NCBI RefSeq assembly: GCF_003284895.1
Contig: NZ_QMDV01000002.1
Coordinates: forward strand, 496,001-560,000
Origin: Pontibacter arcticus
Lineage (GTDB): Bacteria > Bacteroidota > Bacteroidia > Cytophagales > Hymenobacteraceae
DNA: 64,000 nt
Reading direction: 5' to 3'
Positions 11,606-14,982 of this stretch are shown here, piece by piece. The notes under the pieces are model-generated. The model was not told the DNA's origin, made no database searches, and worked only from the letters and a program-made list of their open reading frames with translations. Positions within the stretch are counted from its first letter, which is position 1, and every line of letters starts with the position of its first letter. A program made the position numbers and the translations under genes.

Positions 11606-12613
11606 TTATCTTTTCTTGGATGCGCCTCGCTGCGGGCCGGAGGAGCGTCCGGAACCACCTTTAGCAGCCCCGCGGCTGCCGGATGCGCTTTTCGATTTGC
11701 TTCTGAAATCGCTGCTTTTACCTGGCTTGGATGTATTACCAAAATCTTTGCTTTTGCCGGAGCTGCTTTTGGTATTGCCTTTCCCGAAAGCACCTGTTTT
11801 ACTGCCTGTTGCTGTTCTGCGCGGTTTAAAAGCATTGCTTCTGGCTGGTTTGTCAGGAGTATTGCTGGCGGCTTTTTTCTTTCCGATTGAGCCTTCCTCC
11901 GTCTTCGTAGATTCGGAAACCATACTATGCAGCACTTCTATTTCAGATTCGGTTAAATAGCGCCACTGGCCCAAAGGCAGTTTGGTAAGCGTGATGTTCA
12001 TGATCCGGATACGCTGCAAGGCCACTACTTCGTAATTTAGCGCTTCGCACATGCGACGTATCTGGCGGTTCATGCCTTGGGTAAGTATGATCCTGAATTT
12101 GAAAGGCGTTTCCTGGGCTACAAAACACTTTTTTGTGTTCACACCAAGTATGGATACGCCGCTTCCCATCTTCGTAATAAAATCCGGGGTAATCGGTTTA
12201 TCAACTGTTACGATGTACTCTTTTTCGTGCTTGTTGCCAGCCCTTAGGATCTTGTTTACAATGTCGCCGTTGTTGGTCAGGAAAATCAGTCCTTCCGAAT
12301 CTTTATCAAGTCTGCCGATCGGGAAGATGCGCTCCGGGTAATTTACAAACCGGATAATGTTATCGCGTTGCGAAAGGTCAGTTGTGGTTTCGATACCGGC
12401 CGGTTTATTCAGCGCAAGGTAAACAGGCTCCACTTCGTTAATATTGATTTGTTTGCCGTCCACCATCACCTTGTCGCGGTTGGTAACTTTGGAGCCAACT
12501 CCCGGAATTTTGCCGTTCACCAGCACACGGCCCTGCTCGATCAGTTTATCGGCTTCGCGACGTGAACAGGTACCGGATTCACTTATAAATTTATTTAATC
12601 GGATGGGTTCCAT
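11606..12613 (-). CDS. rluF: 23S rRNA pseudouridine synthase (RluF type) with basic tail
   Basis: A 335-residue RsuA/RluF-family enzyme that isomerises a uridine in 23S rRNA. An N-terminal S4 RNA-binding domain ([29 protein letters not shown]) is followed by the catalytic domain. The active-site motif [16 protein letters not shown] has the catalytic Asp at about residue 103, and [15 protein letters not shown] is the conserved motif near 180-190. Residues after about 230 form a roughly 105-residue low-complexity Lys/Arg/Ser/Gly tail that is absent from the E. coli enzyme and probably binds rRNA. A paralogue with altered motifs lies directly upstream (12969-13991), so this copy is the likely catalytic one. 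Confidence 0.92.
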
Positions 12614-12968: not shown

Positions 12969-13991
12969 TTATCTTGGTTTTCTGGATGTGTTTTTCGAAG
13001 AAGCACTTCGGTTAGTAGCCGGTTTTGATGCTGTATTTCTGCCCGCCCCTTTCGGCGCATCCTTACTGAACGTTCTTTTGGATTCCGGTTTCGCAGCTGC
13101 GTTTCTGGGAGTGCTTTTAGAAGCGCTTGCGGCACGTTTGCTGTTTACTCTTTCCGTTTTTGATTTGGAAGTGGCAGGTTTTCCAGCTGATCTGTTTTTA
13201 TCGAATGTCTTGGTTCTGGCGGCCAGCTCTCTTCTTCGGGCTTCCGCAAATTCATCCTGGTTTGCTTCCTGCTTGCGGCTGCTTTTACCGGAAACAGTTT
13301 CAATCAAAACATCAATTTCAGGCTGAGACAAGGTACGCCAATGCCCGTTAGCCAGTTTAGCCAGCGATATGTTCTGAATACGGGTGCGCTGCAAATGCAC
13401 CACTTTATACCCCAGCGTTTCGCACAAACTCTTAATATGATGATCAGCATTTGGCTCGAGCAAAATCCTGAACTTTGAAGGGCCTTCTTTGGTAACTGTA
13501 TGTTTGCGTTGTACTTCGCCTGGTTCCGGCGGACCCATATAACTTATCTTATCCAGAAATTCAGGGGTGATCACCTTATCTACTTTCAGGATATATTCTT
13601 TCTGAAGCCTGTTATCGCCTCGCACCAGCTTGCGCACCAACTCCGTATCGTTACTCAGAAAGATAAGACCTTCGCCGTCGCGGTCCAGCTGCCCGATTGG
13701 TTGCAGGGAAGCAGGGTAGTTAAGAGCGCGGATAATGTTATTCTTTACCGAATCGTCTGTTTTGGTAGAAATGCCAGCGGGCTTGTTAAAGGCCAGAAAA
13801 ACCGGAACTTCCTCGCGTACGCGCAGCATCTGGTCATCAATCCGTACTTTATCTTTTGGTGTTACTTTCGTACCGGCATCGGGAAGTTTGTTGTTTACTG
13901 TTACGCGGCCTTCCTCAATCAGCCTATCGGCCTCGCGGCGGGAGCAGAACCCGGTGTCGCTTATAAATTTGTTTAATCTCTTCGGTTCCAT
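12969..13991 (-). CDS. divergent RluF-like paralogue with altered active-site motifs
   Basis: A 340-residue tandem paralogue of the downstream rluF. It has the same layout: S4 domain (RLNKFISDTGFCSRREADRLIEEG), catalytic-type domain, and a basic Ser/Lys/Arg/Ala tail after about residue 235. The fold motifs are kept (FLAFNKPAGI, GEGLIFLSN), and the catalytic-position Asp103 remains. However, the near-invariant Arg before it is Gln (PIGQLDRDGEG against [11 protein letters not shown]). The motif [12 protein letters not shown] of the sister is replaced by ADHHIKSLCETL. Either the substrate changed or the protein binds RNA without catalysis. The frame is fully intact, so it is under selection rather than decaying. 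Confidence 0.85.
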   Translation of the reverse strand: MEPKRLNKFISDTGFCSRREADRLIEEGRVTVNNKLPDAGTKVTPKDKVRIDDQMLRVREEVPVFLAFNKPAGISTKTDDSVKNNIIRALNYPASLQPIGQLDRDGEGLIFLSNDTELVRKLVRGDNRLQKEYILKVDKVITPEFLDKISYMGPPEPGEVQRKHTVTKEGPSKFRILLEPNADHHIKSLCETLGYKVVHLQRTRIQNISLAKLANGHWRTLSQPEIDVLIETVSGKSSRKQEANQDEFAEARRRELAARTKTFDKNRSAGKPATSKSKTERVNSKRAASASKSTPRNAAAKPESKRTFSKDAPKGAGRNTASKPATNRSASSKNTSRKPR

Positions 13992-14122: not shown

Positions 14123-14149
14123 AGAGGCTGCCTGTTATGGGCAGCCTCT
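14123..14149. terminator. strong hairpin, probable terminator of the M57 protease gene
   Basis: AGAGGCTGCC-TGTTAT-GGGCAGCCTCT lies 32 nt past the protease stop on the minus strand. Only short A/T runs follow, so intrinsic termination is likely but not certain. Confidence 0.65.
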
Positions 14150-14181: not shown

Positions 14182-14982
14182 CTAGTATAAGTAACCTAAA
14201 GCAGTTTTATCATTTGTATTGAACGGACGATTCTGCCCGGAACCGATACATGCCAACATCCAGGAGTTTGGATCAGCTGATGCTGGTGTTCCCGGGACCT
14301 GGATAGCACCCACTGTGCTGGCTCCTTCGTTGGTATAACCGCCACCACAAGAGTAGCTTCTGTCCATGTAATCTGTATGGCGGAAACCAATGCAATGGCC
14401 TATCTCATGTGCCAGAATTGTAGCCAGCCAGCTTCTGTTAGGGTTGGTACCAATATGGCGTGTAGCAATTTTAACTTCGTTATGAGGCTGACCAGCAGAA
14501 GTAGGGAAGCCAGCTGAAGCTAGGTACTGTGCATTTTTAGGCGCAGCAACAAGGTTAATAGAAGCACCTGATGTAACACGCTGGAATGTAAGCTGAATTC
14601 CTTCTGCATTATAACGGGCAAGCGCTTCATCTACCGCAGCAACATAAGACGCAGGCAATTTCGGATCAACTGAAACAGTGATTACCCTTGGCAACCCTGT
14701 TACTAAATTTGTGGTGCGGTATTGCTCTGCTTCGCCAACACGCAGTGCCTGCACTTTACCCGCATCCCGCAGATCACTCTCTTTTAATATAATATCACCC
14801 TCAACCAGGTAACCCCCTTCAGCACGTTGTACATTTTGTGTACTGAAACCCATTGTTTTTATGGCGTTTATCGTTTGCTCAGATATTTCACTGCTGCTGG
14901 TAACTTCTTCTTCATTCTGGCAGGATGTAAGGCTGAATGATGCTGCCATAAAGGCAAATACAAGTACACGGTTAAATTTCAT
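14182..14982 (-). CDS. M57-type zinc metalloprotease lipoprotein
   Basis: A 266-residue exported protease. The signal peptide MKFNRVLVFAFMAASFSLTSC has a lipobox Cys at residue 21. The zincin motif HEIGHCIGFRH (about residues 192-202) is of the HExxHxxGxxH metzincin form, and the HEIGH spelling is that of the peptidase M57 family described from myxobacteria. A later SWML could be the Met-turn. Conserved N-terminal features are YLVEGDIIL and a YRTTNLV segment typical of these Bacteroidota proteins. It is likely anchored in the outer membrane and active on extracellular protein. The 360 bp upstream (14983-15345) are AT-rich and show no gene. A stable hairpin follows the stop. Confidence 0.88.
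   Translation of the reverse strand: MKFNRVLVFAFMAASFSLTSCQNEEEVTSSSEISEQTINAIKTMGFSTQNVQRAEGGYLVEGDIILKESDLRDAGKVQALRVGEAEQYRTTNLVTGLPRVITVSVDPKLPASYVAAVDEALARYNAEGIQLTFQRVTSGASINLVAAPKNAQYLASAGFPTSAGQPHNEVKIATRHIGTNPNRSWLATILAHEIGHCIGFRHTDYMDRSYSCGGGYTNEGASTVGAIQVPGTPASADPNSWMLACIGSGQNRPFNTNDKTALGYLY

Follow-up and report, generated by a model that had tools for sequence, protein, structure and literature searches.

The locus examined here raises the question of why a genome should keep, directly upstream of a normal rluF gene, a second RluF-like gene whose active-site motifs have been rewritten. The window, the whole stretch of 64,000 nucleotides from Pontibacter arcticus that was analysed, carries both the altered copy (called A below) and the canonical one (B), with the following features:

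11606 to 12613, minus strand: canonical rluF (B), 335 amino acids, every catalytic motif intact, exceeding the NCBIfam RluF and TIGR00093 cut-offs
12969 to 13991, minus strand: RluF paralogue (A), 340 amino acids, catalytic motifs degenerate, frame intact
12972 to 13271, minus strand: basic low-complexity C-terminal tail of A, residues 241-340
13323 to 13799, minus strand: pseudouridine-synthase fold of A, approximately residues 65-223
13425 to 13448, minus strand: motif III of A, ADHHIKSL, in place of MNRQIRRM; His184 and Lys187 are fixed in 52/52 A copies
13593 to 13595, minus strand: Tyr133 of A (in KEY), the active-site Tyr equivalent, kept here and lost in 14/52 orthologues
13677 to 13700, minus strand: motif II of A, PIGQLDRD, with the base-flipping Arg replaced by Gln101 and the catalytic-type Asp103 present
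13845 to 13979, minus strand: S4 RNA-binding domain of A, residues 5-49, strictly conserved across the A clade
14123 to 14149, minus strand: stem-loop resembling a terminator, situated between A and the peptidase gene upstream of it, 10 pairs, 7 of them GC

A lies upstream of B on the same strand with 355 bp between them, begins with ATG and reads without interruption in the window sequence. The two proteins were 43% identical over 341 columns in a pairwise alignment, co-linear from residue 1, which confirmed the intact-frame RluF paralogue reported in a preliminary description of this DNA. The motifs quoted there were also correct, PIGQLDRD in A for PIGRLDKD in B and ADHHIKSL for MNRQIRRM, and its statement that the Arg before the catalytic Asp is nearly invariant was borne out by all 64 canonical RluF proteins compared, which have this Arg two positions ahead of the Asp, and by the 8 other pseudouridine synthases of the window's genome, in which motif II reads [GH]R[LI]D; GQLD was found solely in A. 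The gene directly upstream of A (14182 to 14982, minus strand) encodes a secreted-looking HEIGH-type metallopeptidase (Pfam Peptidase_M57, 154.6 bits). Terminator-like sites such as the one between these two genes occurred in the region at about the level of chance (5 found, 3.7 in shuffles).

The fold, the S4 domain and the basic tail remain in A, as had been claimed. Pfam recognised S4 (44.1 bits) and PseudoU_synth_2 (46.1 bits, residues 65-153) in A, both above cut-off, and the same two domains in B, the latter with 68.8 bits over residues 65-191. The C-terminal tails had a median length of 95.5 amino acids and a charge of +0.19 per residue in A proteins, and 94 amino acids and +0.23 in B proteins. 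The closest PDB structure to A was E. coli RluF with RNA (3dh3; sequence E 2e-58), and an AlphaFold model of residues 1-238, built from six sequences (pLDDT 77.9) and used for fold confirmation only, matched 3dh3 with a predicted-fold E of 2e-23; a full-length model from four sequences (pLDDT 48.9) was discarded. Residue equivalences between E. coli RluF and the window A were Arg105/Gln101, Asp107/Asp103, Tyr137/Tyr133, Arg187/His184, Arg190/Lys187 and Arg21/Arg18. Arg18, in the S4 domain, is also the counterpart of RluB Arg17, which anchors the RNA loop, an equivalence read from the match to RluB, which begins without gaps. The NCBIfam RluF equivalog model NF007784 requires at least 318 bits; the window B reached 364.1, the window A 223.8 and ten other A copies 193.5-252, a result that alone says little, since two proteins of another subfamily with intact motifs also failed (205.4 and 203.8). 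TIGR00093 gave no clean separation of the A clade, with 4 of 11 A proteins tested passing its cut-off and 7 failing.

A was next defined across 150 genomes of the family as any protein closer to the window copy than to canonical RluF. By this definition 52 orthologues were obtained, from 45 of the 50 genomes of the window's genus and 7 of the 8 genomes of its sister genus. The one sister-genus genome lacking A (G039) is a 78% complete assembly, and five genomes of the window's genus (G002, G008, G013, G113 and G115) had the canonical copy only. In the other 92 genomes of the family A was absent by score: no best match there exceeded 226.5 bits, and each A scored 306 or more. Among 291 genomes of the order, a search with an A profile found no A-type protein beyond the two genera: A proteins scored at least 481 bits, the best other protein, a B, 390, and the best outside the genus 321.

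A tree was built of the 52 A proteins and 64 canonical copies (all 42 from genomes with both genes, plus 22 selected among the 98 that lack A), with the motif columns excluded. The A proteins formed a single clade (SH-aLRT 100) on a long stem of 0.61 changes per column, and this clade joined 40 B rows from the window's genus at SH-aLRT 96, 39 of which came from A-bearing genomes. A is thus an old paralogue of the local RluF. The window's own A sat on a long terminal branch (0.5). The altered motifs proved to be shared clade-wide, by 52 orthologues in two genera, when the phylogenetic check proposed in the preliminary description was made; being a property of the whole clade, they are neither a sequencing slip nor a private mutation. 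The B copies of three genomes, G023, G127 and G034 (L091, L090 and L092), branched deeper, outside the local B clade, and may have been reacquired from another source once the native copy had been lost.

The active site of the clade was then compared with that of the canonical enzymes, in E. coli RluF numbering. The combination Arg105, Asp107, Tyr137 and Arg190 was present in 64/64 B proteins and in 0/52 A proteins, and no A protein retained even Arg, Asp and Tyr jointly. Arg105 was missing from 50 of the 52, and the two exceptions lacked either the Tyr (G046) or the Asp (G095). Eight residues occupied position 105 in A (Met 13, His 10, Lys 9, Tyr 7, Phe 6, Leu 3, Gln 2, Arg 2), while position 107 was acidic throughout (Asp 28, Glu 24), the catalytic Asp being present in 64/64 B proteins and in the window A (as Asp103). 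Position 137 was Tyr in 38 A proteins, Leu in 10, Phe in 3 and Ile in 1. Position 190 was Lys and position 187 His in all 52. With Gln-Asp-Tyr-Lys at positions 105, 107, 137 and 190, the window A is among the less degenerate copies.

These losses recurred within the clade. On the A tree the Asp/Glu trait changed at least 6 times, 5 of these changes being forced by well-supported branches, Tyr137 was lost in 5 changes, all 5 forced, and position 105 changed 11 times; none of the three positions changed on the B tree, which is of similar length (9.3 against 9.4 for A). By entropy, position 105 was at the 98th percentile in A, that is, among the 2% most variable sites, and by number of changes it ranked above 78% of sites and position 107 above 59%.

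The A genes are nonetheless under purifying selection. No frame was broken among the 52 orthologues, whose lengths ranged from 313 to 387 amino acids. Among genomes carrying both genes, 77 close pairs (A identity at least 78%, dS below 1.5 in both copies) gave a median dN/dS by the Nei-Gojobori method of 0.041 for A and 0.042 for B. Across the 42 genomes with both copies, S4 identity was higher in A (82.6%) than in B (78.1%), with A the lower of the two in 240 of 861 pairs, whereas for the catalytic domain the order was reversed (61.3% in A, 82.1% in B; A the lower in 820 of 861 pairs). Changes per site were 3.1 in A and 5.8 in B for S4, and 6.3 in A and 4.9 in B for the catalytic domain, on a B tree that includes the 22 copies from genomes without A. 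The S4 Arg pair that includes the RluB Arg17 equivalent was invariant in 52/52 A proteins. Judged from sequence conservation, A is holding its putative RNA grip harder than the active enzyme does, while its catalytic face drifts.

Other residues were fixed in A: H187, K190 and D130 in all 52 proteins, S117 in 51, P183 in 50, D56 in 49 and R124 in 47. The loop 128-135, which is turned towards the bulge A2602 in RluB and RluF according to the available part of PMC3919597, is altered throughout the clade, with Asp130 present and His133 replaced in 52/52. The signature residues and the altered loop speak for a conserved new binding face in A, so that A may grip the RluF hairpin in a different way or bind a different RNA. 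The acid at 107 and Lys190, both constant, suggest a charged pair retained for structure; they may also leave the door open to unusual catalysis.

Counterparts of the residues lost from A have been mutated in other family members. According to the available part of PMC3919597, the equivalent of Arg105 in RluB intercalates in the stem and takes the place of the flipped-out uridine, its replacement in R108A reduces activity to 0.6%, and Met or Lys in place of this Arg inactivates RluA. The same source reports that mutation of the Asp kills activity in TruA, TruB, RluA and RsuA, and that replacement of Tyr140 of RluB by Phe leaves 3% activity. By the yardstick of these mutants, which come from other family members, the majority of A proteins would be expected to have little or no activity. 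In the literature searched, no test of an Asp to Glu change at the catalytic site (e.g. Asp60 of TruA) was found, and no pseudouridine synthase with a catalytic Glu was met.

The reading that we favour, with somewhat more confidence than doubt, is that A represents a pseudoenzyme lineage derived from RluF, a non-catalytic RNA binder and probably a factor for rRNA folding or 50S assembly. The sequence record is one of duplication, clade-wide degeneration of the active site, purifying selection and retention of the S4 domain and fold, and catalytic residues lost under purifying selection are the marks by which the A clade is, as far as comparison can tell, classed as pseudoenzymatic. Standard pseudouridine synthesis is unlikely for the clade taken together. 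Taken alone, the window copy has lost just the Arg and the motif III residues, and the case for its own inactivity rests on these two changes; with Asp103 and Tyr133 kept, its standard synthesis is probably impaired, and residual or altered activity is possible.

Under the pseudoenzyme reading, rluF would have been duplicated in the ancestor of the window's genus and its sister genus. One duplicate would have lost two features, the Arg that flips the base and the NRQIRR side of motif III; constraint on the catalytic Asp and Tyr presumably relaxed afterwards, with purifying selection continuing to act on S4 and on the fold in general. Through S4, A may then bind either the hairpin recognised by RluF, nucleotides 2587-2607 of 23S rRNA, or a related RNA, where it might help the folding or timing of peptidyl-transferase-centre assembly, or shield the hairpin.

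Of the two functions offered in the preliminary description, a role as an rRNA-binding assembly factor fits better, with catalytic residues that vary and an S4 domain more conserved than in B, and by analogy with known systems it is a probable role for A. The suggestion that A modifies another site fits worse, as an enzyme of new specificity should hold its catalytic Asp. Two observations that the preliminary description had named as telling against its account of A, frames broken in relatives (0/52 orthologues) and active relatives with the same motifs (no such paper in the literature searched), were not encountered.

The analogies come from several families. According to the available text of PMC11301382, inactive TruB still rescues and acts as a tRNA chaperone; the D102N mutant of RsuA partially rescues the phenotype (PMC10525438, available part), and inactive RlmB and RlmL stimulate 50S assembly (PMC11194073, available part). 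These four resemble A, as read here, in a function without catalysis, which inactive mutants have shown for them, but they are active, bifunctional enzymes, whereas A is a separate, dedicated copy. In human cells, RPUSD3 has lost the catalytic Asp, RPUSD3 and TRUB2 are without activity, and a role in mitochondrial large-subunit assembly has been suggested for TRUB2 (PMC12716993, available part). Each of the two resembles A in having an active synthase as its paralogue, in its degenerate active site and in having been kept by evolution; they differ in belonging to the RluA and TruB families of a eukaryote, and in RPUSD3 the Asp has become Gly, whereas the site in A is still acidic. RluF itself (23S rRNA pseudouridine 2604, and also position 35 of tRNA-Tyr) shares with A the order of S4 and RsuA-type domains and the basic tail, and A differs from it by the lost base-flipping Arg, the lost NRQIRR, often the Asp or Tyr, and the altered bulge-binding loop. 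RluB (23S rRNA pseudouridine 2605) shares the S4 Arg anchor and binds the same hairpin as RluF, but its active site is complete, unlike that of A; the structure 9cl9 is, as its title reads, of RluB on a 50S assembly intermediate.

Several points stand against the pseudoenzyme reading. The Asp is kept in 28/52 A proteins, the window copy included, and the Tyr in 38/52. RsuA normally carries a Lys in motif III (YHQVKRM), and TruB flips its base with a His (PMC3919597, available part), a residue that 10/52 A proteins have at position 105. The charged pair of acid 107 and Lys190, kept in 52/52, argues against pure loss of function. An assembly role without catalysis is opposed by RluC, which when inactive gives no stimulation of 50S assembly, the catalytic Asp being needed (PMC11194073, available part). 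With the bulge-binding loop altered (Asp130 gained, His133 replaced), the RluF hairpin may no longer be the ligand of A.

Some of the same points feed the strongest alternative, that A is an active synthase directed to another uridine by the changes in its motifs II and III and in the bulge-binding loop, the acid (Asp or Glu) serving as catalyst and Lys standing in for Arg in motif III. The acid and Lys190 kept in every A protein, the Tyr kept in 38, the precedents of the RsuA Lys and the TruB His, and H187, K190 and D130 fixed in 52/52 and P183 in 50/52, like a new binding face, would all suit such an enzyme. It is nevertheless unlikely, as eight different residues occupy position 105 within one clade (98th percentile of variability), Glu has arisen in 24/52 and the Tyr has been lost in 14/52 by repeated changes, replacement of the Arg kills activity in RluA and RluB, and no synthase with a catalytic Glu was met in the literature searched.

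Less probable again is a competitor or regulator of RluF and RluB, whose S4 domain would occupy hairpin 2587-2607 and thereby set the amount or timing of U2604/U2605 modification. The S4 anchor is the same as that of B in 52/52 A proteins, B accompanies A in 42 of the 52 genomes, and the hairpin sequence was unchanged in 19 of the 21 genomes checked. Against this, A occurs in ten genomes without B, five of them without any complete RluF-type protein (E <= 1e-25), and A and B are distant from each other in 17 of the 42.

A weak backup enzyme for pseudouridine 2604 or tRNA-Tyr position 35 is very improbable: the window copy keeps Asp and Tyr, and RluB retains 3% activity as Y140F and 0.6% as R108A (PMC3919597, available part), but Glu is as frequent in A where B is missing (4/10 against 20/42 genomes, Fisher p 0.74). 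A decaying duplicate on its way to a pseudogene, which the faster catalytic domain and the lost catalytic residues might suggest, was rejected as hardly credible given 52/52 intact frames, a dN/dS of about 0.04, stronger conservation of S4 than in active B, and the retention of A in 10 genomes without B.

If the pseudoenzyme reading is right, A would be a dedicated non-catalytic duplicate of RluF that binds the peptidyl-transferase-centre hairpin across a whole clade, kept even without canonical RluF, a bacterial counterpart of RPUSD3/TRUB2; we give this fuller statement about even chances. The putative pseudoenzyme branch of RluF is what is new here, the inactive human mitochondrial RPUSD3 and TRUB2 being already known. 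In the literature searched, from which subscription papers were mostly absent, no inactive bacterial pseudouridine-synthase paralogue was found described, nor was any publication on Pontibacter and pseudouridine found. It is a live question whether rRNA-modification enzymes matter by their chemistry or by RNA binding and folding. Earlier studies had to inactivate the active site by mutation; here evolution has apparently done so and kept the protein, and as 42 of the 52 genomes hold an active sister, the putative binding role can be studied on its own. The annotation of A as 'RluF' or 'pseudouridine synthase' may be wrong in these two genera.

The distance between the A and B starts in the 42 genomes with both was at most 3 kb in 21 and at most 15 kb in 4, with the copies elsewhere in the remaining 17, so linkage does not hold the two genes together. 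No sign was seen that A takes over where B has been lost: with Glu107 as frequent in A-only genomes as elsewhere, nothing points to A having assumed RluF chemistry. In five of the ten A-only genomes (G019, G014, G003, G009 and G029) a third RluF-like protein was present (L172-L176, 233-251 amino acids); it lacks both the basic tail and the CSRRE that opens the S4 domain, but its motifs are intact (GRLDK[DE]SEGL, KEY and NRQIRRM). The two of these that were tested missed the NCBIfam RluF cut-off (205.4 and 203.8 against 318 bits). The other five (G024, G073, G095, G109 and G125) had no complete RluF-type protein at E <= 1e-25 and retained just A and one RluB-like protein.

Alteration of U2604 or its hairpin where B was lost was ruled out, as the 23-nucleotide stretch of the U2604 hairpin had 0 mismatches in 19 of 21 genomes, whether B was present or absent. 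No match allowing up to 3 mismatches was found in G095 and G046, most likely because the rRNA is absent from these assemblies. Genus g5 (14 of the 150 genomes, e.g. G021 and G031) had no A match at E <= 1e-35 and only weak matches to canonical RluF (best E approximately 1e-41 to 1e-44); rluF seems to have been lost there, and the U2604 hairpin was intact in both g5 genomes checked (G021 and G031). The window's genome has its own RluB-like protein, L006 (G000:C1:909352-909747; motif GRLDRNTTGL), which, like L181 of G024, is approximately 590-610 amino acids long. In L181 the synthase domain is at residues 355-584, with a long N-terminal extension ahead of it.
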